From a virus: a stretch of DNA of 41,475 nt. Position 1 is the stretch's first letter. Each line of letters begins with the position of its first letter. The position numbers and the translations under genes were made by a program. The notes beneath the pieces are model-generated. The model ran no database searches and was not told where the DNA came from. It was given only the letters and a program-made list of their open reading frames with translations. Location: positions 1-41,475 of the IMG/VR virus record IMGVR_UViG_3300042456_000578. The stretch is one strand, 5' to 3'. Below, in pieces: positions 4,075 to 31,704 of the stretch.

Positions 4075-4223
4075 ATTGGCGTGAGTTCTTCGTTTTCTTA
4101 GCGAGGGGCGATATATTCCTCTACAAGGAGTATATGAAAACATCCGTTGAGGATGTCTTAACTTTGCTCAAGCATTTCCAGGAGGAAAGGCAACGCAAAG
4201 CTAAACAAGACACCAATGGCTGA
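3975..4223 (+). CDS. second tail-chaperone frame (possible -1 frameshift product)
   Basis: An open frame of 82 codons in the -1 phase relative to the preceding gene, overlapping it by 100 bases and the tape measure start by 8. The segment after the upstream stop reads like real protein (LNWREFFVFLARGDIFLYKEY, then EDVLTLLKHFQEERQRKAKQD). It could be the C-terminal extension of a gpGT-type fusion, or a separate product from ATG 3975 or the internal ATG 4132. The first part of the frame, rich in G, L and P, looks less protein-like, so the true beginning is uncertain. Confidence 0.5.
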   Translation: MDNLLGDGLLPAGADEGTPEIRNLGSELYLNDLNWREFFVFLARGDIFLYKEYMKTSVEDVLTLLKHFQEERQRKAKQDTNG

Positions 4224-7188
4224 TAAAATATCGGTAAGTTACGATGCGAACATAGACGAGATGAAGCGAAAGCTTGACGAGCTTATCGCTAAAAATAGAG
4301 ACCTATCTGCCGCCGCAGCCGCCGCTGCCAGAGCTATTTCCAACATCGCCTCGGCCCAAGGGCTTAGTACGGTTAACAACATCAACAACTCGTTCAACAC
4401 CACAGTCAATGTCTTGGCCCAGGTGAACACGAACCTCACCCAGGTCAATGCTCAACTGAACAACACGACCAACAATGTGACCAGGATGGGCAATGCGGTC
4501 AATTCAGCGAAAAATCAAATAGACATTTTTGATAATTTGCTCAAAAGGGTTGCCGCACGAATGGCTGCATATTTTGCCATTGAGTCAGTCATAGAATTTG
4601 GCAGGTCCATTGTTGATGTAACGAGAAAAACGGAGATACTCCAAAACAGGTTAGCCTTTGTATTTGAGTCTGGAGCCGGTGGGCAAATGGCGTTTGATAG
4701 GCTTTACAAGGTTGCACAAAAACTTGGCCTTGAGTTTGAGCCGTTGATTGATGGGTTTTCAAAATTCGGGATTGCAGCAAAAACGGTTGGCTTTAGTTCT
4801 GCCCAGGCCGAAGAGATGTTCGTGAAGGTTTCGGCAGGTCTTAGGGCCGCAGGTGCAAGCTCTTTGCAAACTCAACGGGCATTTTTGGCCTTGGAGCAAA
4901 TGCTCTCCAAAGGTGTGGTTTCTGCGGAAGAATTAAGAAGGCAGCTTGGGGAAGCATTACCCGGTGCGGCCAACCTTATGGTTAAGGCTTACAATAGGCT
5001 GCACCCAGAACAAGAATTGACAAACAGGCAGTTTATTAAGCTAATGGAGTCTGGGGGCATTATTTCTTCCGAAATCCTCCCTGAGTTCACGAAAGTCATT
5101 GAGGAAACATTTGCCCCTGCCCTTGCAGGCAAAGCGGGGTCGCTTGATGCGTCTTTGAACAGGGCATCAAATGCCTTTAACGATTTCAAAAGAACCATAG
5201 GCGAGGCAAATCTTACCGAAATATCCAATGCATTTACAGCCTTTGGTCAGCGTGTTGATTATGTCAAAAACATATTGACAACCCCATACGCAGAGGGCGA
5301 GGGATTTCTTGGAACGATAAAGAGCCTTCCAACGATAAGGAAGGGCATAGACATAATTGGCGCAGCAATCTTCGGGGAGACAGAGGCCGCAAAAGAGGCT
5401 CAAAAGGTTGCTGAGTTGAATTATCAATCTTTCCTAAACCGTGTTTCTGGTCTTGTGTCCAAAACGGCGAGAGAGGTGTCTAATGGTGCGGCTGAATCCA
5501 TAGAGCAACTATCAAGCGATGAGTTGATGAAGGCATTAGAGGCTCTTGACCAAAAGATGAAGCCGTTAAGAACCAAGCTATTTCCAACGACTGAAGAAAA
5601 CCAAAGAATACGGACTATGCAGGCCGCTTATTCTGATATTCTTAATGTGCTTCAATCAAAAGGCCAAAAAGAAACGCAGGTGGCTATGGATGCCGAACAA
5701 GCATCAAAGGATGAAATCGCCGCCGCCAAGGAACTTATAGCCCTTGAGAACACAAAACTCTTAGCCCTCACCGAAGGAACAACAGCCTACTACAACCAAC
5801 TCGTAAAAGTCATTGATGCCCAAAAAAACCTTGCCAAAATTGAGTTAAGGGATAGGCCAAGGCAAAGGGATTTGGAAATCGCAAAACTTGACAAAGAATT
5901 AGAGAAGGCAAGAAAGATGGCCGATGAGAAATTAGACAAGGAGAACAGAAAACAAACAGAGCAGCAGCTTGAGTTAGCTGTCGTTGCTGCTAAAAAAATT
6001 GTTGAAACCACAAAAGAAGGAACGCAAGAAAGGGCCAATGCCGAGAAATGGTTGGCCTTGGAGGTTGCTGAGCTTGAAAAGTTTAAGGTGACAATATCCA
6101 CCGATTCCGAGGAATTGAAGGCAGAAAAAATAGCCCTTATTAACGAGGGGCTAAAAAACAAGCTCAAAAAAATAGACCTTGACTACGCTAAAGACCAAAA
6201 AGAAACTCAAGACAAAATTGTTGAAGACCAACGAAAAGCCCAAGAAAAGATTGCCGATATAATCCAAAAGACCAATGACCTCATTGAGAAAACGCAATTA
6301 GACACTTACAGACGGAGAAGGGCCATTGTAAAGCAACAATTTGAGGCAATGGCTAACGACATCAAAGAGGCGATGTCTCAAACGGGGGACTTTGAAGCCT
6401 TGGCCCAATTAGCCAAAGCCCTTTCGGGCGTTGAACAAGCAGGAAAGAAAGCCATATCAAGCCTTGACCTAAACCAAGTCGGAGAGGTTATAGATGATAT
6501 TGGAGGGCTGTATTCTGCGGTTGCCGGGTATCAGTCAACGCTTTTGAACAACGAGGCGATATTGTTGAAAGAGCAGCTTGACCAAAAGTTGATTAGCGAG
6601 GAGGAATACAACAGGAAGTCTCTTGAGCTTGAAAAGAAGAGGTTTGAGCAAGAGAAGAAGGTTGCCACATTGGAGGCCACCATTAATGCGGCTTCGGGTA
6701 TCGTTAAGGCCATTGCTCAACAAAAGTATTGGCAGGCCGCTTTGATTACGGCAACGCTTGCCGCTCAAATTGCCGCCATTCAGTCCCAACAGTTTCCGGG
6801 GTTCAAAGATGGGGTGATTGACATTAACGGCCCTGGCACCGGCACATCCGACAGCATTCCTGCAAGGCTCTCTCGTGGCGAGTCGGTAATGACCGCAGAC
6901 GAGACCAAGCGGTACAAGCCCGTCCTTCAAGCCATCCGTGACAATAACTTTGAGGAGTTTGTTTCCAAGCGATACATTGATGCAATGGGGAGTCAAAATG
7001 TTTCTTCAGCCGTAGGCAATTCGTTTGCTGAAAACTTGACCAACTCGTTTGACCTTCAAACCGCAGAGTTAGCGCATTTGTTAAAGCAGAACAGGAAGGT
7101 TGCGATAAAGAATGTGGACGAACTTGCTAAAGCGATGTCAAGGCGAAACACGACCGAAAAGGTCATAAACAGAAGGAGGTTCAAATGA
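4216..7188 (+). CDS. tail tape measure protein
   Basis: At 990 residues this sets tail length and is threaded through the tail tube. Residues about 95-290 match the tape-measure N-terminal domain (FVFESGAGGQ, EMFVKVSAGLRAAGASSLQTQRAFLALEQMLSKGVVSAEELRRQLGEALPGA in pieces). Long coiled-coil stretches rich in K, E, A and Q follow at about 480-700. A hydrophobic Ala/Ile/Gln segment at about 820-865 is followed by PGFKDGVIDINGPGTGTSDS and IPARLSRGESVMTADET, the typical C-terminal signature of tape measures in this kind of phage. The N-terminus has an Asn/Thr-rich, low-complexity tract. It overlaps the previous frame by 8 bases and the next gene by 4. The length would correspond to a tail of roughly 150 nm by the usual rule; that is an inference. 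Confidence 0.93.
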   Translation: MADKISVSYDANIDEMKRKLDELIAKNRDLSAAAAAAARAISNIASAQGLSTVNNINNSFNTTVNVLAQVNTNLTQVNAQLNNTTNNVTRMGNAVNSAKNQIDIFDNLLKRVAARMAAYFAIESVIEFGRSIVDVTRKTEILQNRLAFVFESGAGGQMAFDRLYKVAQKLGLEFEPLIDGFSKFGIAAKTVGFSSAQAEEMFVKVSAGLRAAGASSLQTQRAFLALEQMLSKGVVSAEELRRQLGEALPGAANLMVKAYNRLHPEQELTNRQFIKLMESGGIISSEILPEFTKVIEETFAPALAGKAGSLDASLNRASNAFNDFKRTIGEANLTEISNAFTAFGQRVDYVKNILTTPYAEGEGFLGTIKSLPTIRKGIDIIGAAIFGETEAAKEAQKVAELNYQSFLNRVSGLVSKTAREVSNGAAESIEQLSSDELMKALEALDQKMKPLRTKLFPTTEENQRIRTMQAAYSDILNVLQSKGQKETQVAMDAEQASKDEIAAAKELIALENTKLLALTEGTTAYYNQLVKVIDAQKNLAKIELRDRPRQRDLEIAKLDKELEKARKMADEKLDKENRKQTEQQLELAVVAAKKIVETTKEGTQERANAEKWLALEVAELEKFKVTISTDSEELKAEKIALINEGLKNKLKKIDLDYAKDQKETQDKIVEDQRKAQEKIADIIQKTNDLIEKTQLDTYRRRRAIVKQQFEAMANDIKEAMSQTGDFEALAQLAKALSGVEQAGKKAISSLDLNQVGEVIDDIGGLYSAVAGYQSTLLNNEAILLKEQLDQKLISEEEYNRKSLELEKKRFEQEKKVATLEATINAASGIVKAIAQQKYWQAALITATLAAQIAAIQSQQFPGFKDGVIDINGPGTGTSDSIPARLSRGESVMTADETKRYKPVLQAIRDNNFEEFVSKRYIDAMGSQNVSSAVGNSFAENLTNSFDLQTAELAHLLKQNRKVAIKNVDELAKAMSRRNTTEKVINRRRFK
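7173..7180 (+). promoter_or_regulatory. unusually strong Shine-Dalgarno before the tail protein start
   Basis: AAGGAGGT lies 4 bases before ATG 7185, inside the last codons of the tape measure gene. Most starts in this window have no Shine-Dalgarno sequence, so this is an exception. Because it also encodes part of an Arg/Lys-rich C-terminus, it could be coincidental. Confidence 0.4.
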
Positions 7189-9236
7189 GCTATGTCGTAA
7201 CGCTTGATGGCGTTGTATTGAAAAACGAGCCGATGGACTTGTTGGATGCCTCTGTGGAGGTTTACAGAGATAGCCAAAACCCAGGCATATTCAACACCTT
7301 TATATCGGAGGTTACATTTTGGGGCGATGGGTATGACATTCTTTACTCGTACTTTAATTCGGATGCCGTATGCAAGACCGTTCCTATCACGATAGTTCAA
7401 CAATGCGAAGACGGCTTGGATTTCAAGGGGATTATTTATGTTGATGACCTGGAGGTTAACCTTGAGAAATGCACCATATCCTGCTCTATTGAGGACGATT
7501 CAATTATCGGAAGAATCACAAGATTCAACGAAACCAAGGTTCCCGTAAATGGGGGCAAGAGTATGTCTTCTTCTGCCGATGGCGGCGTTTCGCTTTCAGA
7601 CATAGGGGCGTTAACAACGACCCCGTATTATGATTTATCAACCAATACACCAACGCTGATAAACAAGCGATGGTTCAAGATACTTGAAACCACCGATTAC
7701 GTTCTCAAGTACATTACGGACGGCAAGTGCAATGCGACAAGTAGCTATTTATCAAACAGCGCATACACCTACACGCCCGACACTTGGAGCGTTGTTCTTG
7801 ACATCCTTTCCCCTATTCCCCTATATTATCCTCCAAGTGCGCAATTTGACGAGTATGTGATTAAGATTAAAATATCGGGCGATATTTTTGGCGATGATGT
7901 AATTGTAGAGGAAACGATAAATCTCCCAGGCATAGACAATCCCTTATTGGGGAATATCACCGATAGGGATATTGGGAGAAACCTTGCGATAGCCTTAAAC
8001 TCTTCAAGGACATTTAACATAGACGCACCATCTTGGCCCGATGTGTATGTTTTTGACAGGAATGCGGTTAATAGGGGCGATTTGCCTATTGGCGTTATTG
8101 TTCCTGACAACATAAACAATACAGGTCAAGCATATCCAAATGGAGTGCCAATCGTTTTGATATTCCCTTGGAATGTTCAGTCCATAACTTGCTTGGACTT
8201 TTACAACAAGACCACAGGCGTAAGCTTTATGAGCAGCATAAACTTTACAGCCGTAAGCCCATCTCCGAGCAATTTGACGATTCAGACACAGTTTAATTAC
8301 GGAGCGCACAATTTCGTGTTTACCTCTGGGAACATATTGAAGTCTGGCCCGAAGAACGCTTCTGCCAACCCGCTTGTAAGCCCCCCGTTTGAAGGTCGGG
8401 AAGAATTGATGAACGTATCCTTCAACGATTTAAGCACGGGTGTTTACTCGCTTTTCAATTTGTGCATTATCCCCAAGAGAAATTCAGACGGAACATACAC
8501 CATACAAGTGGAGCCAGAACCCGAAACCTTTAACATCTCAACGCAGATATTTGAACTTGAGGACATTAAGGACTTGCTATTCAAAAGGGGAGACACCTTT
8601 GTTTTTTCGGCCTTGCAAACGGGCCTTACCGGTTCACGTACGAATTTCTATTTGCATCAGGGCATTGGCTTCACGACCGATTCTTGCTCGGATAGTTCGC
8701 TGAATGCGACTTCAACATTTTACCCCGCTAATTGGAGTGACACATCCTACTTGTCGGACAACATTTCGGATGAGAGCATCTATATGGCCGAGAAGCTGCC
8801 ATCATCCACGAGTTACCCCAACAATATCGCCTTTTATCCCGTAAAAAGACTTGGTGTCACGGCAACATACAATATGGCAGGACAGCAAGTCCCTCCTGCC
8901 ACAATTACCTTTAATAACGATGCGGAAACCTGCTTTTCGGTTATTAACCACTTTGTCGCAAGAAACCATGTCAATAAGACAAGGAATGGGTACTCGCTAT
9001 CTGGGAGAAAGATACCAAAGACCAACAACACCTTCCCTTGGTGGAACATAAGCGGCATTGACACGGACATGAAGAATGAGTTGTCTTTTGAATATCCAAT
9101 CACGACCGCTCAATTAAACGACATTATTGACAACCCTTTTGGCTATATCCTTTGCGATGGCCGCAAGGCGTGGATCAAGAAGATTTCTTTCTCCATTAAG
9201 ACGGGAATGACTAACTTTGAACTTCTGACCGAATGA
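7185..9236 (+). CDS. tail tip / baseplate structural protein
   Basis: The 683-residue protein follows the tape measure directly, the place of distal-tail and tail-hub proteins. The N-terminal portion (DGVVLKNEPMDLLDASVEVYRDS, ISEVTFWGDGYDILYSYF) is beta-rich and contains a short region with cysteines (CEDGLDF, CTISCSIEDD). The C-terminal part, ending KKISFSIKTGMTNFELLTE, resembles the closing strand of hub-like tail domains. ATGA overlap with the tape measure and a 4-base overlap with the next gene point to tight co-translation. The exact role (distal tail or hub) cannot be decided without structure prediction. Confidence 0.7.
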   Translation: MSYVVTLDGVVLKNEPMDLLDASVEVYRDSQNPGIFNTFISEVTFWGDGYDILYSYFNSDAVCKTVPITIVQQCEDGLDFKGIIYVDDLEVNLEKCTISCSIEDDSIIGRITRFNETKVPVNGGKSMSSSADGGVSLSDIGALTTTPYYDLSTNTPTLINKRWFKILETTDYVLKYITDGKCNATSSYLSNSAYTYTPDTWSVVLDILSPIPLYYPPSAQFDEYVIKIKISGDIFGDDVIVEETINLPGIDNPLLGNITDRDIGRNLAIALNSSRTFNIDAPSWPDVYVFDRNAVNRGDLPIGVIVPDNINNTGQAYPNGVPIVLIFPWNVQSITCLDFYNKTTGVSFMSSINFTAVSPSPSNLTIQTQFNYGAHNFVFTSGNILKSGPKNASANPLVSPPFEGREELMNVSFNDLSTGVYSLFNLCIIPKRNSDGTYTIQVEPEPETFNISTQIFELEDIKDLLFKRGDTFVFSALQTGLTGSRTNFYLHQGIGFTTDSCSDSSLNATSTFYPANWSDTSYLSDNISDESIYMAEKLPSSTSYPNNIAFYPVKRLGVTATYNMAGQQVPPATITFNNDAETCFSVINHFVARNHVNKTRNGYSLSGRKIPKTNNTFPWWNISGIDTDMKNELSFEYPITTAQLNDIIDNPFGYILCDGRKAWIKKISFSIKTGMTNFELLTE

Positions 9237-11629
9237 TTACACCAAATCAACCAATGGTATGCGTTCCATCGTCTTCAACGCAGAATGTCGCTCCGTATGA
9301 CGCATTGACCAATGCCAACTATTACGACATTGAGGGTTCGGCGGCATTCTTGGCTGACTCAAAGCTTACCTTTTGGGGTGGCCGTAGCGGTGCGAGTGTT
9401 TGGAGTATCTATACAAGTCGGGCCGTTAGCGATGGGGCCATACCGCTGACCGACCCCTATTATAGTTTTTTTCAGCAGACCCCTTGGGAGCGATACAATT
9501 CAAGGGCAACTCAGGATGGGGCGTTTACATCGACCCCCTTTGACTTTGGGGGGGCTTGCACTCAAAGCTCAAAGAGCGAGTTCCGCAAACTCTCTGGCCT
9601 TGAGGACATCTCTTGCGAGGAGGTTATTTACAACGAGTTCCTATCCCTTGTTGATGCCCCCAACGCCACGGTCTTTGTGGATTTCGGCATACGAAATCAG
9701 TGCGACTATGGCATTGTGCGGTTCAATGTGTCCAATTTTTCCTACAATAGCAAGTCCATTACCTACGGGGCCGCTATTGCTCAGGGTCTAAGCACGGTGA
9801 ACATAACGGGCAATGGCTCGTATTCCCTGCCCGTTATTTTGAATCCCCTTGGGGCCACTTCATCGTTGTCTCCGAACGGATCCACCAACTTCTTCATTCA
9901 GTCCCTTGGCCCGGAGCCTTATGTCCGTTTTGACATTGATGATATTGAGGTCTTTTGTTTCACGCCCGATGAATTGAATTGCGACTCTTGCAAGACGGGG
10001 GAATACCAACAACCCGTTCTCCTTGAGGCCATAGACTATTGGTCCGAGATGAACACGAGGGCCGATAGCCAAAACGCTATCCCTGCACTAACCGCTGTCC
10101 CTTATGGCCCTTGCGAGGACTTGTTTAAGGCGAGAATGGAAAGCCTTATGCTTGGCCAGGACGATTACAAGGCTGAATTGTTGAGCTTCCAAGTGGATGA
10201 CCCTTTCTGCGGGCAATACGTTTTCAACTCCGACTTTGAACTCCTTACGAGTACAACCGATTCATTTGTTCCCTATGCTATTGGTTTGACACCACTTACA
10301 AGATATGTTGCAAATGGATGGAATACTGCTTTTTGTGCGTTTTCTTCCAGCGGTGCGACAGACAATAAGGCAACATTCAGCTATGCTTGGTCTGTGTTTA
10401 GCCAGATACCCGCTAATTTCTTAGATGCGTTCTCGCAAATCCTTCAGACAAGTTCGGCAATAATGAATCAGCCAAATACCGTTTATCGGATTTCGCTGAC
10501 TGTTGAGCCGTACGCAGGTCAGTTTGCGTCCAATGGCATTGGTGTTTTTGCTGTTGATGGCACAAACTTTGGGATTAATTTAGGGACAATACTTGAGCCT
10601 GGAGACCATTCGTTCTACTATCGCACAACATCCTCTTGGAATACTTTTGCCAAGTTGAGCATCCAAGGCTTGCCGACTCTTGGATTTTCGTACACCATTT
10701 CCAATGTGTCCGTGTCAAGGCTTACTGCCTACACGCCCGTTCTTATCCCGACCGTTAGGCTGAACCTTTCTTCGGTATTCAAGACGGTGGTGGATAGCGT
10801 GAGGATGTCGCAGGACTTTTCGGGTGTTGGGCCTTTCTATCCCATCATAGCGAATGCTCTTTACGAGTATTTCCACTTTGAAACCCGGAGGGCCGATTTG
10901 AATTACGACCCACAGCAATGCTTTCGGATTTTGATTACGAAGGACTATTGCTTTGATGCGGATGATTCAAGCCTTGCCAATGAGTCGCTTGATTTCTGCA
11001 TCACCGAGCCGTACAAGTGGATAACAGACCCCTGCAACACGCTGAGGATTGGTGCCGGTCAGGAAACCTCCGCAAATAAGCAGGCGTGTGCTTTTGGCTT
11101 CACCTACCCAACCGTTTCCGAGGACCTGGGCGTTACCGAGTGGTTGCACCTTACGAGGGTCTATGGCGAATTGAGAAACCCACAATACGATGGTGAAACG
11201 ATAACCTATCAAGATAGCCGTGGGAAGAAGCGGGTCGTGTATGCGGAGAGCCGTGAGTTTATGGAGATGGTCGTGAACTTCTCTCCCAAGTGGGTTCACA
11301 ACTTTATGCGATTGGCTTGCAGGCACGATTTCTTCTATGTCAATGATGGCAATTCGGATGCCTATTACTTCACCAGGTCGGAGACTTACTCCCCTACTTG
11401 GATTCGCACGAGGCTCGTGGCTCCTGCGATGTTGGAGATTGAGGTTAAGGAGCAAGACCTCCGCAAGGAACTTTGTTGCGTTGGGTTTACGGGCCAAGAC
11501 TTTGGCGAAGACGAAAGGGAGATTTTGCCATACAATCCTTACGGAACTTATGGCCCTCCTGTTCCGGGCGAGCCAACAGAGCCAAGCGAAGGCGTGTTTG
11601 ATGAGTCGTTTGATTTTACATTTGAATGA
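9233..11629 (+). CDS. large tail protein with an embedded carbohydrate-binding-like module
   Basis: A 798-residue tail protein. Residues about 331-502 (bases 10225-10740) read like a jelly-roll carbohydrate-binding module: it opens with YVFNSDFELL, runs through VANGWNTAFCAF, NTVYRISLTVEPYAG and SFYYRTTSSWNTFAKLSI, and closes with TISNVSVSRLTAY, the usual GW...YRVS...NVSV pattern. This module interrupts a protein otherwise rich in Cys, Asp and aromatic residues (CDSCKTGEYQQP, CFDADDSS, LCCVGF). The C-terminus is Pro/Gly/Glu-rich. It is probably part of the tail tip and may bind host surface sugars. The last gene of the tail-tip block, it is followed by a promoter-like element. Confidence 0.7.
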   Translation: MITPNQPMVCVPSSSTQNVAPYDALTNANYYDIEGSAAFLADSKLTFWGGRSGASVWSIYTSRAVSDGAIPLTDPYYSFFQQTPWERYNSRATQDGAFTSTPFDFGGACTQSSKSEFRKLSGLEDISCEEVIYNEFLSLVDAPNATVFVDFGIRNQCDYGIVRFNVSNFSYNSKSITYGAAIAQGLSTVNITGNGSYSLPVILNPLGATSSLSPNGSTNFFIQSLGPEPYVRFDIDDIEVFCFTPDELNCDSCKTGEYQQPVLLEAIDYWSEMNTRADSQNAIPALTAVPYGPCEDLFKARMESLMLGQDDYKAELLSFQVDDPFCGQYVFNSDFELLTSTTDSFVPYAIGLTPLTRYVANGWNTAFCAFSSSGATDNKATFSYAWSVFSQIPANFLDAFSQILQTSSAIMNQPNTVYRISLTVEPYAGQFASNGIGVFAVDGTNFGINLGTILEPGDHSFYYRTTSSWNTFAKLSIQGLPTLGFSYTISNVSVSRLTAYTPVLIPTVRLNLSSVFKTVVDSVRMSQDFSGVGPFYPIIANALYEYFHFETRRADLNYDPQQCFRILITKDYCFDADDSSLANESLDFCITEPYKWITDPCNTLRIGAGQETSANKQACAFGFTYPTVSEDLGVTEWLHLTRVYGELRNPQYDGETITYQDSRGKKRVVYAESREFMEMVVNFSPKWVHNFMRLACRHDFFYVNDGNSDAYYFTRSETYSPTWIRTRLVAPAMLEIEVKEQDLRKELCCVGFTGQDFGEDEREILPYNPYGTYGPPVPGEPTEPSEGVFDESFDFTFE

Positions 11630-11708: not shown

Positions 11709-12287
11709 ATGGCTTATTTAGAATACGGCTGTACTGCTTTGCCAGACCACGAACTCGTACTTTGTGGGGACTACAAGCGTGGCGGTATCTCTGCGATTGG
11801 TATTCTTGAGGAGGACGCATTTGGCTCTGGGGGAACTTTTGCAACGGACGCTGACTTCGGCGTTGCGGCAAAATACACCGCCGCTCTCGCTGCTGGAGAC
11901 CTCAAAATTATCAAGAATGTTCGTGGAACGGTACCCGATGCCTCCCCCGTTGACGTTGACAACCCCGTTGGTTGCGGCCCTCAAAGCCTTTTAGCGGGCT
12001 TTGACTTTACCGCTACCTGGATGGATGCCAACACAACCGATGGAACCATTGCCTTTTATAGCGCACTCAACAAGCGTGTAACGGGTTTGATTCTGTACCT
12101 GTGTGGTTCCAATGAGGTGATGTTCATCACCCAGCCCGTGAATTATGTGTGCCTGCCGGTTAATGTCCCCGCTTCCAACAAGGAGCTTCAGATGTTCAAC
12201 TGTACGGCCCGTGCTTCGCTCGGCCCAGACCAATTACCCAAGAAAATCACTGCGCCTTCCAACGCAGACGCTATCTTCGGAGCATAG
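11709..12287 (+). CDS. putative major tail (tube) protein
   Basis: A 192-residue protein with its own promoter and terminator and with the same start context (TTTTAACAAAATG) as the major capsid gene, which suggests very high expression. It is beta-rich, with Ala, Gly and Val, and carries several cysteines (YGCTALPD, VLCGDYKRGG, VGCGPQ, YLCGSN, YVCLPV). Position, size and expression features fit a tail tube subunit; no sequence signature proves it. A decoration or other abundant virion protein is the alternative. The glycosyltransferase-like genes start right after its terminator, so it is one candidate for what they modify. Confidence 0.55.
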   Translation: MAYLEYGCTALPDHELVLCGDYKRGGISAIGILEEDAFGSGGTFATDADFGVAAKYTAALAAGDLKIIKNVRGTVPDASPVDVDNPVGCGPQSLLAGFDFTATWMDANTTDGTIAFYSALNKRVTGLILYLCGSNEVMFITQPVNYVCLPVNVPASNKELQMFNCTARASLGPDQLPKKITAPSNADAIFGA

Positions 12288-12307
12288 GTTTCGGTTTGGT
12301 TTTTTTG

Positions 12308-12339
12308 AATCCTCGGCCTTTGGTCGGGGATTTTTTTTT
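12308..12339 (+). terminator. strong intrinsic terminator
   Basis: An 11-bp stem (12308-12318 with 12322-12332, two G-T wobbles) with a TTT loop is followed by a run of T to 12339. The last T is also the first base of the next -7 element, TACCTTTG (12339-12346), so terminator and promoter are directly joined. Confidence 0.9.
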
Positions 12340-12346
12340 ACCTTTG
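12339..12346 (+). promoter_or_regulatory. -7 element TACCTTTG of a leaderless promoter
   Basis: TACCTTTG ends 5 bases before ATG 12352. With the usual Bacteroidota spacing, transcription starts at or within a base or two of the A of ATG. The terminator U-tract occupies the position just upstream. Confidence 0.7.
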
Positions 12347-12351
12347 CACAG

Positions 12352-13299
12352 ATGAGTGAAAAAACCACAGGGATAGTGATTATGGCTTTTGGAAAGTCAG
12401 CTTATCACGAAATGGCCTACAACTTCGCAATATCGGTGAAGGCTTTTGACAGAGACCTCCCCATTCAGTTGATATGCGACAAAAGGAATATGTTGATTCC
12501 CCACAATTATTGGGTCTTTGACATTATCACCATCATTGAGCAAGATGACTTGTATTCGGGCTATGGTTTTAGCCCAGGCAGAGCCAAGACGAGGATGGAC
12601 AAGTATATGGCCTTTGACAACAACCTATACTTTGACACGGATGGCGTTGCGCTCAAATCCTTGCAACCGCTGATTGATATGCTCCTTGCGTTGCCAGAGA
12701 GCGGATATTTCTATTCCCAGGTAACATCTTGGGATGACCCGAAGGGAGGAACGCCCAAGGGCAACCTAAAAAGGGACGGAGCCGATTTCCCTGCGATGCA
12801 ATGGGCCACCCTTGATACCATTTGGGAGTTCCACAAGCTTGACGATGATGCCGAGGTTGTGGCCATAAACAGTTCGTTTATGTTCCTTCGCAAGGGCGAG
12901 AAGCTCACGGAGTTCTTTGAGCAAGTAAGGGACAACATTGACAACGGCATCCCGATAGACAAGCTTAAAATGCCTTGGGGAGGCACTTACCCCGATGAGC
13001 TTGCCTTCAACATCGCTTGCGCCCAATACAAGATTGACCCCTTTTGTGGCGAGAATCCCGTTTACTTCCAATACCGAAACGCTTTATCGCCCAAGATTAT
13101 TCCTTGGATGATGGAGAACTATTATGTCTTGGGATTATTTGGTGGCCCTGGGTTCTCCCACGATTCTGCCTGGGAGCATTCTTGCGCCCTGCTTGGAGAG
13201 TATCATGCGAGATTCGGGATGACGCACCAATACAAGTGGCACAGCCTTGTAAGGCAAAAGCACGCAGGAAAGCAAAATGTGATGATAAGATGGAAATGA
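12352..13299 (+). CDS. GT-A-type glycosyltransferase-like protein
   Basis: A 315-residue protein beginning MSEKTTGIVIMAFG. The beta-strand start GIVIMAFGKSAYHEMAYNFAISVKAF, the 'ICDKR' segment and a DTD motif at residues 95-97 in NLYFDTDGVAL are typical of nucleotide-sugar-dependent GT-A folds with a metal-binding DxD. Later segments (AINSSFMFLRKGEKL, WGGTYPDELAFNIAC) resemble the acceptor-side region of GT8-like enzymes. ATG 12352 is chosen because a terminator and promoter lie directly before it; the same frame is open further upstream but crosses those elements. It is the first gene of a six-gene sugar-modification cassette. Donor and acceptor are unknown. Confidence 0.75.
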   Translation: MSEKTTGIVIMAFGKSAYHEMAYNFAISVKAFDRDLPIQLICDKRNMLIPHNYWVFDIITIIEQDDLYSGYGFSPGRAKTRMDKYMAFDNNLYFDTDGVALKSLQPLIDMLLALPESGYFYSQVTSWDDPKGGTPKGNLKRDGADFPAMQWATLDTIWEFHKLDDDAEVVAINSSFMFLRKGEKLTEFFEQVRDNIDNGIPIDKLKMPWGGTYPDELAFNIACAQYKIDPFCGENPVYFQYRNALSPKIIPWMMENYYVLGLFGGPGFSHDSAWEHSCALLGEYHARFGMTHQYKWHSLVRQKHAGKQNVMIRWK

Positions 13300-13961
13300 A
13301 CGGATTTATCTCGGTGATTACGACCTGCAAGGGCAGGCTTCATCATTTAAGACAGACATTGCCTGGATGGATGGCTCAAGAAGGAGGCAATTATGAGATT
13401 ATAGTGGTTGACTATAATGACCCAAACGATTGCTTTTCCTATGTTGAATCCCTTTGCGACCCAAGGGTTAGAGCGGTAAAGGCCGACAATGATGACCCGT
13501 TTTTTAATTTGAGCAAAGCCCGGAACATAGGGGCTATGGCTATATCCGAAAAAACGGACGTGATTTTGTTCGTGGATGCCGATACCATTATGACCAACAA
13601 TGTCTTCATAAACTATCATAAAGGCAAAGTGCTGAATCCGGGCAATTTTCTTTGCGGATGGGCTAATGGCAACATGAATCTTGGGGCAGGGGCTTCTGGC
13701 AGTTGTATGGTTTGGAGGGATGACTTTTTCGCTGTGCGTGGATATAACGAGTTAGCAAATGGGTGGGGATATGAAGATGTTGAGTTTTACGAAAGGCTTG
13801 AGCGGATAGGCAGGCAACAAACAGCATTTCACAACGGCCTTGACTCTATTCAACACAGCGATGAAGAAAGGGTAATGTTTTATCGCAAAAAAAACATCCA
13901 TGTGACCAGCAACGGCAATCTTTTGACAATGAAGAACAACTTTCAAAGTTCTATTGCGTGA
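13290..13961 (+). CDS. family 2-type glycosyltransferase
   Basis: A 223-residue protein. ISVITTCKGRLHHLRQTLPGW is the classic GT2 opening, EIIVVDYNDP holds the nucleotide-binding acidic residues, and LFVDADTIM (DAD at about 96-98) is the metal-binding DxD. NGWGYEDVEFYERLERIG near residue 160 is the C-terminal GW-ED motif of the galactosyltransferase-like C domain. It overlaps the end of the first glycosyltransferase; ATG 13296, forming ATGA with that stop, is an equally good start. It would transfer a sugar from a nucleotide donor in the cytoplasm. Confidence 0.85.
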   Translation: MEMNGFISVITTCKGRLHHLRQTLPGWMAQEGGNYEIIVVDYNDPNDCFSYVESLCDPRVRAVKADNDDPFFNLSKARNIGAMAISEKTDVILFVDADTIMTNNVFINYHKGKVLNPGNFLCGWANGNMNLGAGASGSCMVWRDDFFAVRGYNELANGWGYEDVEFYERLERIGRQQTAFHNGLDSIQHSDEERVMFYRKKNIHVTSNGNLLTMKNNFQSSIA

Positions 13962-14515
13962 TTCAAGTCATTAAGGCCAATGAGCATGGCGATTCAAATG
14001 TCTTTGAGGTATGTGGGATTCATGTGTATCATTCGCCATACATAGGCATAACTCGTGGCTATGGCGAGTTTATGGACCATTACAAGCCAGAGCCTTCCGC
14101 TGAATGGGTTGTGTATCAGCCTCACGATGTGGCTCTTAACTATTTTGATTTAAGGCGTGCCATAGATAATTCTCCTGGAAAGTTCTTTCAATTAAGCCTT
14201 TCGGATGATTCTTACGGCTCACACGAATTTCTTTTTAAGCGCAAACGGCAGGGATGGCATCGGGTTCCTTTCGTTGAGATTATGGTTCCTGTATTCAAGA
14301 GGGACTTTTATGATGTCGTGGCCCCCTATATGAAGGAGTCCAAGTCGGGATGGGGGCTTGATTATCTATGGGCGCATTTGTATGGTGAGCAACCTTGGCT
14401 TTGTTGCGATTACGAAATGAGGCACAAAAACCCAATAACTTCGCACAAGTGGCGAATTGACGGAAAAACACCTATGGATGAAGTGGAATACATAACCAGA
14501 AAATACTTGCGATAA
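13958..14515 (+). CDS. putative DUF707-like glycosyltransferase-related protein
   Basis: A 185-residue protein starting at GTG 13958 with a 4-base overlap to the previous gene. The stretch VEIMVPVFKRDFYD, followed by SGWGLDYLWAHLYG and NPITSHKWRI, resembles DUF707-type proteins, which are grouped with glycan-modifying enzymes in bacterial surface-polysaccharide clusters. The N-terminal WVVYQPHDVALNYFDLRRAID region is not recognised. Given its place between two glycosyltransferases, a role in the same glycan pathway is a fair inference. Catalytic activity is not shown by the sequence. Confidence 0.6.
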   Translation: MIQVIKANEHGDSNVFEVCGIHVYHSPYIGITRGYGEFMDHYKPEPSAEWVVYQPHDVALNYFDLRRAIDNSPGKFFQLSLSDDSYGSHEFLFKRKRQGWHRVPFVEIMVPVFKRDFYDVVAPYMKESKSGWGLDYLWAHLYGEQPWLCCDYEMRHKNPITSHKWRIDGKTPMDEVEYITRKYLR

Positions 14516-15081
14516 TGAGCGTTAAGAAAGGTATAACCTTTGTGATTCCATCCGTAAACAGGCCCACAATTCATCGGGCGATTGATTCTTTGATACGACA
14601 AAGCAATCCTAATTGGGAATGCGTTATTGTGTATGATGGCGTTGATGGCCCTTCTTTTAACGATGAAAGGGTTAGGTGCCTAAAGGTTGAGAAAACAGGC
14701 ACAAGGGACGATGTTCACGGAATGGCGGGCCTTGTTCGCAATTTTGGCATAAAGGCCGTTGATACGGAATGGGTTGGGTTTCTTGATGACGATGATAGCC
14801 TGGACGAGTCTTATGTTGATGTCTTGCTTAACAAGTACGAAGGGCATGATGCCGTTGTTTTTAGAATGAGATACATTGATGGGTCGGTTATACCAAGGGT
14901 GGAAGATTCTCGTATGTATTTCTCAAATGTCGGAATATCCTTTTGCTACAAAAGAAAGGACTTCCCGATTTTGTTTGACAGCAATAGGAATGGCGAGGAC
15001 TTTGATATGATAAACAGACTTCAATCCTTGTGTGAGCGATTTATAGTTGCTGAAGAGATATTATACAGGGTTAACCATTAA
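14515..15081 (+). CDS. family 2-type glycosyltransferase (short)
   Basis: At 188 residues this holds only the catalytic core of a GT2 enzyme. GITFVIPSVNRPTIHRAIDSLIRQ is the N-terminal Rossmann-like strand and helix, and WECVIVYDG carries the UDP-binding Asp. The motif FLDDDDSLD (about 90-95) is the metal-binding DxD, and NGEDFDMINRLQ is the candidate catalytic-base region. Its start overlaps the stop of the preceding gene (TAATG). It is about 50-100 residues shorter than many GT2 proteins but seems complete, as the open frame is flanked by normal neighbours. Confidence 0.8.
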   Translation: MSVKKGITFVIPSVNRPTIHRAIDSLIRQSNPNWECVIVYDGVDGPSFNDERVRCLKVEKTGTRDDVHGMAGLVRNFGIKAVDTEWVGFLDDDDSLDESYVDVLLNKYEGHDAVVFRMRYIDGSVIPRVEDSRMYFSNVGISFCYKRKDFPILFDSNRNGEDFDMINRLQSLCERFIVAEEILYRVNH

Positions 15082-15093
15082 ACAAAGCGAAAA

Positions 15094-15954
15094 GTGAGCA
15101 TTAAGGTAAAGGCAATTTGTAATTGGACGGATTCAGCGTCCTTGTCTAAAATAATCATTCAGCAATCTCTTTATAGCGAATCTGACGGCATTGAGTTTGT
15201 TGACGATGACTCATACGAATGGCTTTTTATTTTCAACAGCAAAGTTGATGAGGAGATTCTCGTGCCGAAAGAAAGAGTCATAGGCTTCATCCAAGAACCG
15301 CCCATTTCATCGTTTTTTGACAAAGAGATAGGTAAATACTGCTCCGTTGTTTACACTTGCACGGAGCCTCACGCCTACAACATAGACGGCAATATCGTTG
15401 GTTTCCCTTGCGGGATGCTTTATCAGATGGAGGGCAATTTGACCGATTATCTGGACGGTCTTGATAAGCAAAATAAGCGAAGAGTCATAAGCATGGTGAC
15501 GAGCAATTTCTCCCACGGATTTTACTCGTTTAGACACAATATGGCCAAGGAACTTGCGACTTGCGGATGGGTTGATGTTTATGGAAGGGATTTGGATGTG
15601 CCTGGATGCAAGGGGGGACTTGGCAACAAGGCCGATGGGTTAATTCCTTACAAGTTCTCGGTGTGTATGGAGAACAGCATTTGGGATGATTACATCTCCG
15701 ACAAGATTATTGATGCTGTTCTATGTAGAACCATCCCTATTTATGTGGGTGCCAGAAACATCCACGAGCATATCCCTTTCGCCATTCGCCTTGAATCTTA
15801 TCGCAACGCATCCTTCGCAAAGGCTGAGATTGAACACATCGTGTCTTCGGTGGATTACGATTCCCTTCTGCCCCAAATGAACGATTGGGTTCGTAAATAT
15901 GCGAATGAATACACGATTTACTCAAAGATTAAACAAACCATCATAAATAGTTAG
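15094..15954 (+). CDS. GT10-like fucosyltransferase
   Basis: The 286-residue protein carries the GT10 signature at about residues 187-215: YKFSVCMENS, then DDYISDKIIDAVLCRTIPIYVGA, the donor-binding motif of alpha-1,3/4-fucosyltransferases (consensus FxLxFENSxxxDYxTEK...PVxxG). Bacterial enzymes of this family use GDP-fucose. GTG 15094 is the likely start, 12 bases after the previous stop. Upstream, an NSKVDEEI, VIGFIQEPP and VYTCTEPHAY stretch fits the acceptor-binding half. No GDP-fucose synthesis genes are seen, so the host would supply the donor. Confidence 0.8.
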   Translation: MSIKVKAICNWTDSASLSKIIIQQSLYSESDGIEFVDDDSYEWLFIFNSKVDEEILVPKERVIGFIQEPPISSFFDKEIGKYCSVVYTCTEPHAYNIDGNIVGFPCGMLYQMEGNLTDYLDGLDKQNKRRVISMVTSNFSHGFYSFRHNMAKELATCGWVDVYGRDLDVPGCKGGLGNKADGLIPYKFSVCMENSIWDDYISDKIIDAVLCRTIPIYVGARNIHEHIPFAIRLESYRNASFAKAEIEHIVSSVDYDSLLPQMNDWVRKYANEYTIYSKIKQTIINS

Positions 15955-15956
15955 CA

Positions 15957-16598
15957 ATGTATCACTCACAAGTAGGGCAGGACGAGTTCGTTGACAATTT
16001 TCTTGGCGGAAAGCGCAATGGCCGCTATTTGGACATAGGAAGCCACAATGGGGTTGACCTTTCAAATAGCTATTTCTTTGAGGTTCAAAGAGGTTGGACG
16101 GGCGTTTTGATTGAGCCTATGGAGGAGGAATACGCTAAATTGGTGGCCAATCGCAGCGACAAGAATGATTTCTTCAATGTAGCGGTTTCCAATTACTTTG
16201 GTACGGCTCAATTCACCAAGATATTGGGTGGATATCACGGCCTGAATATGATTTCGGGTCTAAAGCAAAGCTTACACGAAAAGCATCTTGACAGGATTCA
16301 CAGGGAAGCCAATGAGTCAAATGCCCAAGTCGTAGATGTCACCGTGCCTGTTAGAACGGTCCAGGACATATTGGACGAATGCGAACTTTATCAATTTGAC
16401 TTTTGCTCCCTTGACACGGAGGGTTCAGAGTACGAGGTCCTTGAAGGAATTGATTTCAGCAAGACCGAAATAAGCATTTTCTTGATAGAAAACAACGGCT
16501 ATGAATCAAGGGAGAAGATTGAGTCTTTCTTGAGTAGGAAGGGCTATCGCTTCCACAGAAGCATTGGGCATGATGATGTTTACACCTTGATTCATTAA
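15957..16598 (+). CDS. FkbM-family methyltransferase
   Basis: A 213-residue SAM-dependent methyltransferase. It begins SQVGQDEFVDNFL, and YLDIGSHNGVDLSNSYFFE (about 24-42) is the SAM-binding motif I. WTGVLIEPMEEEYAKL is motif II, and FCSLDTEGSEYEVLEGIDF (about 147-165) is the hallmark FkbM strand. FkbM enzymes O-methylate sugars or other small groups, so it plausibly caps the glycan built by the preceding transferases. It begins 2 bases after the fucosyltransferase stop and ends the cassette. Confidence 0.88.
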   Translation: MYHSQVGQDEFVDNFLGGKRNGRYLDIGSHNGVDLSNSYFFEVQRGWTGVLIEPMEEEYAKLVANRSDKNDFFNVAVSNYFGTAQFTKILGGYHGLNMISGLKQSLHEKHLDRIHREANESNAQVVDVTVPVRTVQDILDECELYQFDFCSLDTEGSEYEVLEGIDFSKTEISIFLIENNGYESREKIESFLSRKGYRFHRSIGHDDVYTLIH

Positions 16599-16641: not shown

Positions 16642-16649
16642 TAATTTTG
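16642..16649 (+). promoter_or_regulatory. putative -7 element TAATTTTG before the portal block
   Basis: TAATTTTG lies in the 104-base gap between the methyltransferase and portal genes, 18 bases before the mini-ORF start at 16668 and 53 bases before the portal ATG. A clear -33 element at normal spacing is not evident. Confidence 0.5.
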
Positions 16650-16702: not shown

Positions 16703-18550
16703 ATGACAACAGAGGAAATTCTCCCCCTGTTAGACAAAATCATAACGGAGTACAAGAAGTACGAGGTTAAGAAAAAGTCTGACAAGTTTTACATCCCCGA
16801 TTTCTACCCGACCTATCAGTCTTGCGTGGAGATGGAGATGAGGCTTCGGATCCACTCCGATTACGATGCCTTCCCCGAAAAGCTGTTCCGGGAGAAAGCC
16901 CCCAACGAACTCCCCCACGAGTTCAATTATCGGAAGAACATCTACAAGCCCATCACGGTGCCTTATTTCCATAAGGCCGTAAACATTGCTGGGCGAGTGT
17001 GGAATCGGCAGAATTACGAGGTTCGCTTTGAGGACGCTTCCCAAGAAAGGTATTTCAACGAGGACTATCCTCGCTTTGGCTCATTGGAGAACTATTTTCA
17101 GCAGATTGTGAGCTTTATGACCTTGACCGACCCCAATGCGGTCTTGGCCATTATGCCTACCGACCTTCAATACTTTGAGGACGGCACCTTTAACGATACC
17201 ATTGAAACCACGCCTGTGGCCCATTGCTTTCACTCCAAGCGAGTGTGGGGATGGAAGGAGGGCGAGTATGCCTTCCTAAAGGCTGATTACGGCTCCGAGG
17301 TTGAGCATGGCCGTACCAAGACGGATGATGGGTTGGTCTTCTACATCTTTGACAAGAACGAGATTCAGATTGCCAAGCAAATCGGCAAGAAGGGCGATTA
17401 CGAGTTTGAGATTGGCCTTTACTATCGCCACAACTTAGGCTATTTGCCCTGCACGAGGCTCGGAGGTATTTCGGTGCAGGAACACGGCGATTACTATTTT
17501 CAATCCTTCTACACCCCTGCCATCCCCGCTTTGGACCAAGCCGTGTGCGACTTCAGCACCTTGCAGATGTCCAAGTTCAGCCACGCTTTCTTGCAGAAGT
17601 GGGAATATGTGGATGAGTGCGATAAGTGCAATGGCTCTGGGCAGATTGAGGAGGCGTTAGGCTTTGAGGAGAAGGTGGCCATTGCCTGCTCTAATTGCGG
17701 AGGCTCTGGCACGAAGCGGATGTTCGGGCCGATGTCGGTGTACCAGGTGCAGACTCCGAACCGATTCACGACCGAGGTGGAGACCAAGGTGAACATCCCT
17801 CCTGCCGGGTTCATTGAGTTGGATCCGCAAATCCTTGACTTCCTAAACAAGCAAGTCATTACCAATATCCAGATGGCCTTTGAGTTGTTGTCCATTGATG
17901 TAATGAACAACGAGAAGATTTCGGGCCGTGAGACCGCCACGGGTAAGGCCATTGACCGGGAGGAGTTGTATTCCTTCCTGCTCCGCTTTGCCAACACCAT
18001 CTTTGCTGACTATGAGTTCGCTATGGACACGATTGGGAGGATGCGTTATGGCGATGCTTGGGCTATGCCTGCGGTTCGCTATCCGCAGAACTTTGAGATG
18101 CGTACCGATGCGGAGTTGACCGCAGAGATTAAGTTGGCCCCGACCTTTTCCAAGGCGATGTTGGCCCAGCAATACCTTGACACTCGCTTCCCCATCCAGG
18201 AGGAGAAGAGTGCGATAATGAAGTTGAGCGTCCAGGTTGACCCCTTCTTCAATCTTGAAACGAGGGATGTCTTGGCGTTGGTTGCTTCGGGCATTGCCCC
18301 CAAGTGGAAGGCGATAATGCACTTTGAGTTGGAGTCCTTGATTAAGGAGGCTTTGTCGGAGAACGAGGAGTTCTTGACGCTGACCTTGGCCGAGCAGAAG
18401 GCGGTGTTGATAGAGATGGCCAAGAAGTTGGTGCCAGAGGATGAGGGTTCGTCCAGGATGACTCCCCAAAGCGTTATGAACGCACGGACGGCTATCCCTC
18501 CTGCACAGGCAGAGGACGAGGACGAAGAGGGCGAGGAGGACGAATCGTAA
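16703..18550 (+). CDS. portal protein with a DnaJ-like zinc-finger insertion
   Basis: At 615 residues it forms the vertex ring through which DNA passes. Its place before a MuF-like protein, scaffold and capsid, and segments such as YRKNIYKPITVPYFHKAVNIAGRVW and EKISGRETATGKAIDREELY (the long helix region), support the call. The middle holds two CxxCxGSG-type motifs, CDKCNGSG (306-313) and CSNCGGSG (329-336), as in the zinc-binding region of DnaJ. This is unusual for portals. The C-terminus is very acidic (AEDEDEEGEEDES). A 2-base gap separates it from the next gene. Confidence 0.85.
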   Translation: MTTEEILPLLDKIITEYKKYEVKKKSDKFYIPDFYPTYQSCVEMEMRLRIHSDYDAFPEKLFREKAPNELPHEFNYRKNIYKPITVPYFHKAVNIAGRVWNRQNYEVRFEDASQERYFNEDYPRFGSLENYFQQIVSFMTLTDPNAVLAIMPTDLQYFEDGTFNDTIETTPVAHCFHSKRVWGWKEGEYAFLKADYGSEVEHGRTKTDDGLVFYIFDKNEIQIAKQIGKKGDYEFEIGLYYRHNLGYLPCTRLGGISVQEHGDYYFQSFYTPAIPALDQAVCDFSTLQMSKFSHAFLQKWEYVDECDKCNGSGQIEEALGFEEKVAIACSNCGGSGTKRMFGPMSVYQVQTPNRFTTEVETKVNIPPAGFIELDPQILDFLNKQVITNIQMAFELLSIDVMNNEKISGRETATGKAIDREELYSFLLRFANTIFADYEFAMDTIGRMRYGDAWAMPAVRYPQNFEMRTDAELTAEIKLAPTFSKAMLAQQYLDTRFPIQEEKSAIMKLSVQVDPFFNLETRDVLALVASGIAPKWKAIMHFELESLIKEALSENEEFLTLTLAEQKAVLIEMAKKLVPEDEGSSRMTPQSVMNARTAIPPAQAEDEDEEGEEDES

Positions 18551-29625: not shown

Positions 29626-29841
29626 TTAGGTTAAGAGTGGGTCATCGTAAAGGTCATCCATTTCAACCTTAAAATCGGTCAGTACCGCATCAACTCGCTC
29701 CTGCATCTCTGGTTCATCGCTGAAAGTGTGGTGTTTAAGTTCGGCCAAGGCGAGGTACATCGCAGGGGCTTGGATGGCCTTCTTGTAATTGACCATATCC
29801 TGCTCGTTGTTCGTGTCAAACTCAATCGTTATTTTGGCCAT
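29626..29841 (-). CDS. small conserved-type hypothetical protein
   Basis: A 71-residue acidic protein. MAKITIEFDTNNEQDMVNYKKAIQ followed by a helix (APAMYLALAELKHH) matches the pattern of a small phage protein that starts with 'xxxFEFNLPxDxxdfexa...yylaLxdf'. Its ATG overlaps the ParB-like gene end by 20 bases. Function unknown. Confidence 0.65.
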   Translation of the reverse strand: MAKITIEFDTNNEQDMVNYKKAIQAPAMYLALAELKHHTFSDEPEMQERVDAVLTDFKVEMDDLYDDPLLT

Positions 29842-30418
29842 TGTGTTTTTTTAGGAGGTAAACAACCGCTTCTTCAAAGGTTTCGGCCAAAGATAAAAGT
29901 TCATCCCTCACATAGAGAAACTCCTTCTTGTTAAATCGGAGGATAATCTTCTGGGCCTTAGCGTTGTCCTTCCGCTCCTCTTCCTGTTCCAACTCTTTTT
30001 CAATCTCTTCGGGCATCTGCCAGACATCTATGCCGCAATCGGCCAGGAGTTGAGCATCCCATTCATTCGCCAAGGCATCGTAATCGTAATCCCCAAAGGC
30101 TGAGTTGTCCTTCAGAGCGATGGCCTTCAGTTTCTCCAAGGGCGTGTCTGCGGAGAGAACCTTGCAGGGGGCCGAATCGTAATTCAGTTCCTTCAAGGCT
30201 TTGAGCCTCATATTGCCCCCAATGACCACGAATGTTTCCTCCAAAGGAAACACGATAAGCTCCCGAAGCTTGAGCATCTCTGGGTCATCCTTGAGGCTTT
30301 GGACGAGCTTGTGGAAGCGGTCATCCCGGATAAGCCTTGGGTTCTTAGGAAGCCCCTCTATCTGCCCGACATTGTTGCGGAGCTTATAGAGTTTGATCTC
30401 TTTGGTTTCGTTCAGCAT
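29822..30418 (-). CDS. ParB/Srx-like domain protein
   Basis: A 198-residue protein. The N-terminal half has the ParB-like core: LYKLRNNVGQIEGLPKNPRLIRDDRF, then LIVFPLEETFVVIGGNMRLKALKEL (the GGxxRxxAL motif), then PCKVLSADT and AIALKDNSAFGDYDYDALANEW. Such proteins in phages are often paired with a DNA methyltransferase, as here (6 bases upstream in the transcript). They may load or guide methylation, or regulate. The C-terminus is highly charged (EELEQEEERKDNAKAQK) and helical. Confidence 0.8.
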   Translation of the reverse strand: MLNETKEIKLYKLRNNVGQIEGLPKNPRLIRDDRFHKLVQSLKDDPEMLKLRELIVFPLEETFVVIGGNMRLKALKELNYDSAPCKVLSADTPLEKLKAIALKDNSAFGDYDYDALANEWDAQLLADCGIDVWQMPEEIEKELEQEEERKDNAKAQKIILRFNKKEFLYVRDELLSLAETFEEAVVYLLKKHNGQNND

Positions 30419-30423
30419 CTCGG

Positions 30424-31704
30424 TTAAAATAGGTTCTTTACCGCTTCAATCCTTGCCTTTGCTATCTCAACATATTCAGCCTCCCGTTCTATCCCGACAA
30501 ACGCAAAGCCTTCCAACATGGCCGCCTTGCCCGTTGAGCCTGACCCCATGAACGGGTCGAGGACGATTCCGCCTGGTGGGGTTACAAGTCGGCAGAGATA
30601 GCGCATGAGGTCGGTTGGCTTGACGGTGGGGTGGTGGTTGCGTGATCCGCTTGTCCTGCCCGCCCCTGCCCTTGGGCTTTCCATCCCTGCGCTTCCTTCA
30701 ACACGATCCACGCATTCGCCCGCAGAACGCTCTTGCAATTTTTCACACCCCTCGTCCCTATCCGCTTTGCTTGCCTTGGCGCAGTAGAAGAAGCGAGCGG
30801 CGGAGCCGGAGTCGCCGCCATTGCTTGTGCCTTTGTACGCTTCCCAGTCCGTTGAAGCGCAAAAAGTTGATGCCTTGCGCCCGTGCTTGTCACCACCACC
30901 ACTCTTCGTGTCAGGAAACAACGCCACCACTTCCTCGCTCCCATCGTGGATGAAGTTGGCGGGCCAGCGGCCTGTTGGGTTATAGTTCTTAGGCTCAATC
31001 ATAGAATAATCCCCATAGACATTATTTCCCGTCAGGGGTGGTGTTCCAAAATTGGCGTGTTGATTTTTTTGAGTGCTTTCTTTTCTATCTTCCTCTGACA
31101 TAAAATCTACCCTACACCCATCCACGTTAATCGCACCCGTCCCGTGTTGCAGGACGTTCTCGGCTACCGTGCCAATCAAGGGCTTTCGAGCCACTGTAAT
31201 CGGTTCGAGTGCGGGTTTGAGTGCAGTCCCCCAGCCTTGCCATTGTTTTGCTTCGGGGGTGGCGGGGGTGGTGATGGTCGCTTGATTTTCTTGTTGTGGA
31301 CAGGCAATTTCGCTTTTGGATGTTCTCCAATTTTCATTAAAACCCACCACCTCACGCTCTACTCCTGCCGCCTTATCAATCGCCTTGCTTACGTCCAACG
31401 ACTTCGGAAACCCCGACCCGTACACCCAAGCAATCATGTCCCGAATCTCAAAGCCTGCGTCCTCAATCCGCACCGCCATTCGGTGCTGCGTCCTCGTTCC
31501 TGCAAATGCAAGAAGATGACCGCCCGGCTTCAAGACCCGAAGGCACTCGGCCCAAATCTCAACGCTTGGCACATCATAGTCCCACCGCTTGCCCATGAAG
31601 GACAACCCGTAAGGAGGGTCGGTTACAACCGAATCAACGGAGCAGTCGGGGAGGTTTCGGAGAACGCTTAGGCAATCTCCGTGGTGTAGGGTTAGTCTTT
31701 CCAT
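30424..31704 (-). CDS. beta-class DNA methyltransferase (adenine or N4-cytosine)
   Basis: A 426-residue SAM-dependent DNA methylase. The catalytic DPPY is at 29-32 in VTDPPYGLSF, and the SAM-binding DPFMGSGSTG is near 383-392, close to the C-terminus. DPPY first, FxGxG-like last defines the beta class. A variable target-recognition region lies between them (about 130-340). HHPTVKPTDLMRYL fits DNA-methylase motifs X/I. It may protect phage DNA from host restriction. The Ser-rich and Gly-rich middle includes two cysteines, and no cognate endonuclease is evident. Confidence 0.92.
   Translation of the reverse strand: MERLTLHHGDCLSVLRNLPDCSVDSVVTDPPYGLSFMGKRWDYDVPSVEIWAECLRVLKPGGHLLAFAGTRTQHRMAVRIEDAGFEIRDMIAWVYGSGFPKSLDVSKAIDKAAGVEREVVGFNENWRTSKSEIACPQQENQATITTPATPEAKQWQGWGTALKPALEPITVARKPLIGTVAENVLQHGTGAINVDGCRVDFMSEEDRKESTQKNQHANFGTPPLTGNNVYGDYSMIEPKNYNPTGRWPANFIHDGSEEVVALFPDTKSGGGDKHGRKASTFCASTDWEAYKGTSNGGDSGSAARFFYCAKASKADRDEGCEKLQERSAGECVDRVEGSAGMESPRAGAGRTSGSRNHHPTVKPTDLMRYLCRLVTPPGGIVLDPFMGSGSTGKAAMLEGFAFVGIEREAEYVEIAKARIEAVKNLF

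Follow-up and report, generated by a model that had tools for sequence, protein, structure and literature searches.

What is a set of sugar-transferring and methylating enzymes doing among the structural genes of a phage? The question is raised by positions 12352-16598 (+ strand) of the 41.5 kb virus record IMGVR_UViG_3300042456_000578, the full 41,475 nt of which make up the window analysed here (the record may be incomplete). Six co-directional and closely packed genes lie there, called A to F below, with a tail-tube gene on their left and the portal gene on their right. We propose that they constitute a phage-encoded, cytoplasmic pathway for virion glycosylation that would build a methyl-capped glycan, most likely on the tail tube, and we give this sequence-based reading a probability of roughly 0.68. 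To our knowledge, glycosylation of tailed-phage particles by the phages' own enzymes has been demonstrated in only a few mycobacteriophages.

The six genes are packed as one tight operon, as the initial annotation of this DNA had said: A and B overlap by 10 bases, B and C by 4 and C and D by 1, gaps of 12 and 2 bases separate D from E and E from F, and the arrangement recurs in all relatives. Its placement of the cassette between tube and portal also holds. The product of the left-hand gene (11709-12287, +, 192 aa) has a predicted tail-tube fold, in that nearly all the top Foldseek matches of its AlphaFold2 (AF2) model, whose predicted local distance difference test score (pLDDT) is a moderate 70, are to proteins of tubes or baseplate tubes (best E 1.3e-3), and the right-hand gene (16703-18550, +) encodes a portal protein (PHROG 7376, E 6e-16). 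Measured against close relatives, the ratio of nonsynonymous to synonymous substitution rates (dN/dS) is 0.07-0.16 for A, B, C, E and F and 0.36-0.53 for D, a value that comes from very few changes and is less certain than those of the other five; the majority of the cassette genes are under purifying selection. All six proteins lack membrane-spanning stretches (their highest mean Kyte-Doolittle value over 19 residues is 1.09).

Gene A (12352-13299, +, 315 aa) belongs to no family in Pfam or NCBIfam and has no confident PHROG match, and its assignment comes from structure prediction. The AF2 model (pLDDT 90.0, from an alignment of 27 relatives) has as its best solved Foldseek matches glycogenin (3qvb, E 7e-9), UGGT and LgtC, all of them GT8 or GT8-like GT-A enzymes, and D95-x-D97 is invariant in the alignment of relatives. 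The earlier description of A as a GT-A-like transferase is borne out by this, and the model indicates more narrowly a GT-A fold of the GT8 type with a metal-binding DxD. The likeness to GT8 lies in the overall fold and the invariant DxD and, in part, in the fact that GT8 includes enzymes that act on proteins (glycogenin, UGGT); against it, identity is only about 10-16%, there is no Pfam GT8 match, and the best PDB profile match, although to a GT8 enzyme, has an E value of 0.62.

Four of the other five genes were assigned from Pfam profiles: B (13290-13961, +, 223 aa) is a predicted glycosyltransferase (GT) that matches both GT2 (E 3.4e-12) and Glyco_transf_7C (E 3.9e-9), D (14515-15081, +, 188 aa) is a short predicted GT2 enzyme (E 9.3e-16), E (15094-15954, +, GTG start, 286 aa) matches Glyco_transf_10, the GT10 or alpha-1,3-fucosyltransferase family, above the cut-off (E 2e-10), its profile also matching solved alpha-1,3-fucosyltransferases (E 2e-9), and F (15957-16598, +, 213 aa) is a putative FkbM-family S-adenosylmethionine-dependent methyltransferase (E 4.5e-20, above the curated cut-off, with NCBIfam in agreement). 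All four agree with the calls made initially. Gene C (13958-14515, +, GTG start, 185 aa) is different: it had been called DUF707-like, but the match (E 0.042) reaches 13.5 bits against a curated cut-off of 24.1 and is absent from its two relatives at 66% identity, and we withdraw that name in favour of a probable transferase whose family assignment is sub-threshold. Homologues of C at 66-99% identity occur in cassettes of the ABCDEF and ABC types (below).

Is gene A next to the tube gene only in this phage? The more distant relatives were taken from a diverse alignment of A, which reached 186 matches of which 80 were kept, and in all 79 readable cases the tube gene directly precedes A. The portal follows, usually with one gene between; of the 90 genes in this position, 78 are hit by the Methyltransf_24 profile and 76 by that of O-methyltransferase family 3, the solved relatives of these intervening proteins being catechol-type O-methyltransferases. 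The smallest cassette, seen in a second and larger family, accordingly reads tube, A, one O-methyltransferase, portal; in one locus (L199) a GT2 enzyme and a methyltransferase are fused in one protein. When all relatives are pooled and identical proteins removed, the tube gene stands directly before A for 149 of 149 A proteins with readable upstream DNA, and the adjacency persists down to 30% identity in A, 35% in the tube and 25% in the portal. Seen from the tube, A is the next gene for 134 of 136 distinct tube proteins, and the two exceptions are tandem tube paralogues with an Lcl_C-like C-terminal domain, where the second tube copy precedes A. The only cellular match of the A search, counted among the 79, is a prophage-like stretch in a Bacteroidetes metagenome-assembled genome (MAG), with the order tube, A (enlarged to 766 aa), further genes, portal.

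Separately, a 484 kb uncultured phage (L398; LR756508.1, 462445-475137) carries two A relatives within a run of genes for apparent glycosyltransferases and for proteins like sulfotransferases, and neither is beside a recognisable tube or portal. The Polaribacter phages P12002L and P12002S share a distant portal with the phages studied here; in them it is a terminase, not a cassette, that precedes the portal, and they were set aside.

Near relatives show what varies and what does not. A portal search of viral contigs gave 78 loci, 46 of them (the window included) with a readable tube-to-portal interval. Across the whole comparison loci were gathered by searches with A, tube, E or portal, so that relatives lacking all four would be missed, and gene order in related phages is not independent. 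Every one of the 46 intervals holds a cassette, of 1.8-5.5 kb and always with A, and none is empty. The sets are ABE in 25 loci, ABCDEF in 8, AE in 6, ABC in 3, ABEF in 3 and A by itself in 1; in the loci inspected, non-homologous genes stand in for the missing letters (GT2, Nucleotid_trans, FkbM and class I methyltransferases, a DegT aminotransferase, a hexapeptide transferase). The exact six-gene combination, of which the initial annotation knew no description in a phage, was thus found in seven other loci and belongs to a much wider and variable series of cassettes. The tube gene and A are constant, and at least one methyltransferase occurs in almost all of the complete cassettes examined; the remainder is exchanged, although E is found in nearly all expanded cassettes. 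Sets differ even between phages whose portals are 98-99% identical to that of the window (for example L002, L006, L010 and L018), and conversely a locus with a tube of 89% identity (L003) has the ABCDEF genes unchanged. Among close relatives the distances of A track those of the tube (r 0.72) more than those of the portal (r 0.59). In the tail genes before the tube (window 4216-11629: tape measure, distal tail and a 798-aa protein) there is strong mosaicism between phages with 99% identical portals, and exchange is therefore not confined to the glycan cassette.

The cassette appears to be transcribed separately from the tube gene. An intrinsic terminator at 12307-12333 (+), with a 12-pair stem and a T run, is predicted to close the tube transcript, and a Bacteroidota-type -7 promoter element, TACCTTTG at 12339-12346 (+), lies 13 nt ahead of the start of A. 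The terminator together with the TAnnTTTG motif, 11-13 nt ahead of A, is present in 17 of 19 diverse loci, so the terminator and the promoter that the initial annotation had seen are both retained in relatives; the promoter is not sigma-70-like, as no such promoter was found near A on the + strand and the Bacteroidota-type motif fits instead. Another promoter-like element, TAATTTTG at 16642-16649 (+), lies ahead of the portal gene. Of the 21 TAnnTTTG motifs in the rightward late block, 9 fall in intergenic DNA, which makes up 3.5% of the block (binomial P about 2e-8, with intergenic base composition uncontrolled), and the strict -33/-7 promoter pattern is not enriched. TAnnTTTG is the Bacteroidota promoter type, and the host is therefore probably a member of that group, as is also supported by the A relative in the Bacteroidetes MAG; a search for portal homologues in genomes as a further host clue gave none.

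Virion decoration is the function best supported by these observations, since the linkage to the tube is obligate in about 150 phages, the cassette belongs to the late block and has a promoter of its own, a membrane partner of the seroconversion type is lacking, and the enzyme content is like that of a mycobacteriophage locus shown by others to glycosylate virions (below). This agrees with the earlier argument that late-gene placement favours decoration. The sequences show the enzyme families, their order and conservation, the linkage to the tube gene, the exchange of variable genes and the promoter motif; the acceptor, the sugars, the order of the steps and the benefit are what we infer. A methyl-capped particle glycan is consistent with a protein-acting kind of GT that stays next to the tube gene, accompanied by extension enzymes and a methylating step. 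The methylated, fucosylated glycan first suggested therefore survives in part: the methyl cap is likely, as almost all complete cassettes examined have at least one methyltransferase, and fucosylation is plausible only through the GT10 membership of E.

The pathway would run as follows. Late in infection the cassette would be transcribed from its own Bacteroidota-type promoter, and A, a retaining transferase if its chemistry follows its fold, would prime the glycan by placing a first sugar, drawn from a host nucleotide sugar, on one of the virion proteins, of which the tail tube is the most likely. B, D, E and perhaps C would extend it, the sugar added by E probably being fucose or another deoxysugar like it (a guess from its family), and F would O-methylate the end as a cap. 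The enzymes that follow A are swapped between relatives like those of a serotype locus, so that near-identical phages would come to carry different methylated glycans. The coat might shield the particle against proteases, grazers or binding by host or competitor, or might tune its adsorption. More tentative, and in our estimate somewhat short of an even chance, is the fullest form of this proposal, in which A founds a new family of dedicated GT8-like tail-tube glycosyltransferases that prime a methylated tube glycan, and a downstream serotype-like locus is exchanged by recombination and gives near-identical phages different glycans throughout a large uncultured group, probably of Bacteroidota phages.

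How does this compare with systems already known? A passage of PMC12363180 (citing Freeman 2023) names Che8, Corndog and Myrna as mycobacteriophages with glycosylated proteins and their own GTs, and one in PMC12619734 (citing the same work) places glycans of Mycobacterium phages on capsid and tail-tube subunits. The Che8 locus has three GT genes at the right genome end. Like the cassette it consists of soluble phage-encoded GTs, several in a row, and its gp108 is related to D (27% over 123 aa, E 1e-6, although GT2 similarity is common). Because the C-terminal part of gp108 matches the sugar O-methyltransferases MycF and CalS11, the Che8 locus, which belongs to a phage with demonstrated glycans, also combines a GT2 enzyme with a sugar methyltransferase. 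On the other hand the hosts differ, gp108-gp110 show no significant similarity to A, E or F, and the cassette joins an invariant tube-linked GT to a methyltransferase in almost all complete versions and to other genes that are exchanged. The cassette is thus comparable to the virion glycosylation of mycobacteriophages, with enzymes and a layout of its own. Virus-encoded glycan pathways are also described for chlorovirus and mimivirus (review PMC9614988), where GTs and sugar methyltransferases of the virus decorate capsid or fibrils; the likeness is one of description, and these giant viruses differ in their eukaryotic hosts and far larger gene sets.

Several points weigh against the reading given here. 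Gene order, however well conserved, is not in itself proof that the enzymes act on the tube; within a single lineage synteny can be retained for no functional reason. The capsid or other tail proteins are equally possible acceptors. The Che8 GT genes lie at the genome end and not beside the tube, homology between A and Che8 gp110 is undetectable, and no isolate in the phage collection is among the relatives found. The tube itself contains a D-A-N-x-T motif before a helix (residues 106-110, window 12024-12038) that is present in 137 of 140 distinct tube proteins, with its N and T among the few invariant positions of a diverse tube set; however, in the lineage of L044 and L050, which keeps A, T110 is N (giving N-T-N). 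As that lineage retains the enzymes, the motif, which resembles the bacterial N-glycosylation sequon, is no more than a lead, and a structural helix cap is at least as likely.

If virion proteins are the target, it need not be the tube: the glycan could be on the major capsid protein, a head decoration or the tail tip, the position of A being merely inherited order. This is a sub-case of virion decoration that overlaps the tube proposal, and it gains from the mycobacteriophage case, where passages in PMC12619734 and PMC12363180 have capsid as well as tube glycosylated, and from the independence of cassette type and small tube changes in L003 (above). We hold it to be rather unlikely, given that A is beside the tube in every case, even at 25% portal identity, and that its distances follow the tube more than the portal, though this last is expected of neighbouring genes. 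The cassette might also act on the cell and not on the particle.

Surface-conversion cassettes depend on membrane enzymes, and DNA glycosylation depends on base-modifying genes. The host-surface explanation, which the initial annotation had kept as its alternative, would have the phage change lipopolysaccharide or capsule late in infection and so block superinfection or the binding of progeny to debris. The weak similarity of B and D to polysaccharide-biosynthesis GT2 enzymes (far under curated cut-offs) is in its favour, as is the variation of the cassette among near-identical phages, which is what surface-antigen loci do; the gtrABC O-antigen conversion genes of temperate phages are likewise phage-borne glycosyltransferases exchangeable between relatives. 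The cassette differs from gtrABC in having no GtrA flippase, no GtrB-like membrane enzyme (the polyprenyl-phosphate glucosyltransferase) and no membrane segment in any of the six proteins, and in its place in the late structural block with obligate linkage to the tube gene. Its minimal version is one soluble GT and one O-methyltransferase, too few enzymes for a new surface glycan to be made and exported, although such a pair could modify an existing nucleotide- or lipid-linked precursor; altogether we consider this explanation improbable. More improbable still is that the GTs decorate hypermodified bases of the phage DNA against restriction. Phage GTs are known to glycosylate DNA bases (Pyle 2024, as cited in a passage of PMC12619734), and D very weakly matches beta-glucosyl-hydroxymethylcytosine-alpha-glucosyltransferase (PHROG 842, E 0.04). 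But the scan of window proteins, which took in most but not every small gene of a possibly incomplete record, turned up neither a thymidylate-synthase-like hydroxymethylase nor a TET/JBP oxygenase nor a base kinase; the cassette is among tail and portal genes and not replication genes; and phages with portals still 98-99% identical differ freely in what their cassettes contain. A defence function received no support from PADLOC.

Some other features of the window and its relatives were recorded. At the tube N terminus a carbonic-anhydrase-like stretch (E 0.06) lacks the metal ligands and was taken as chance. In two relatives (L017:4411-5544 and L031:4376-5479) the tube gene is immediately preceded by that of a second, longer tube paralogue, which ends in an Lcl_C-like domain and is possibly a decorated minor tube protein. 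Portal residues 304-337 (window 17612-17713) form a DnaJ-like CxxCxGxG zinc-ribbon insertion (Pfam E 2e-4, under the cut-off), unusual in a portal, whose cysteines are retained in relatives down to 26% identity. The terminase large subunit (1282-2493, 403 aa) begins to match at position 200 of a 642-residue profile, which suggests that its N-terminal part is missing or separately encoded. In the leftward block, a ParB-like nuclease-family protein adjoins a DNA methyltransferase (29822-31704, -). A small phage protein with a DnaA C-terminal DNA-binding domain (33691-34194, -; Pfam E 2.6e-20) possibly recognises a host or phage origin.

The tail tube and its GT8-like neighbour make a specific, testable pair, and the minimal two-enzyme version of the cassette could be reconstituted in a laboratory strain. 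If glycosylation by the phages' own enzymes is obligatory in a widespread uncultured group, carrying glycans on the particle would be ordinary in that group, and the variability of the cassettes would mean that the surface chemistry of these particles evolves by gene exchange, much as that of bacterial capsules does.

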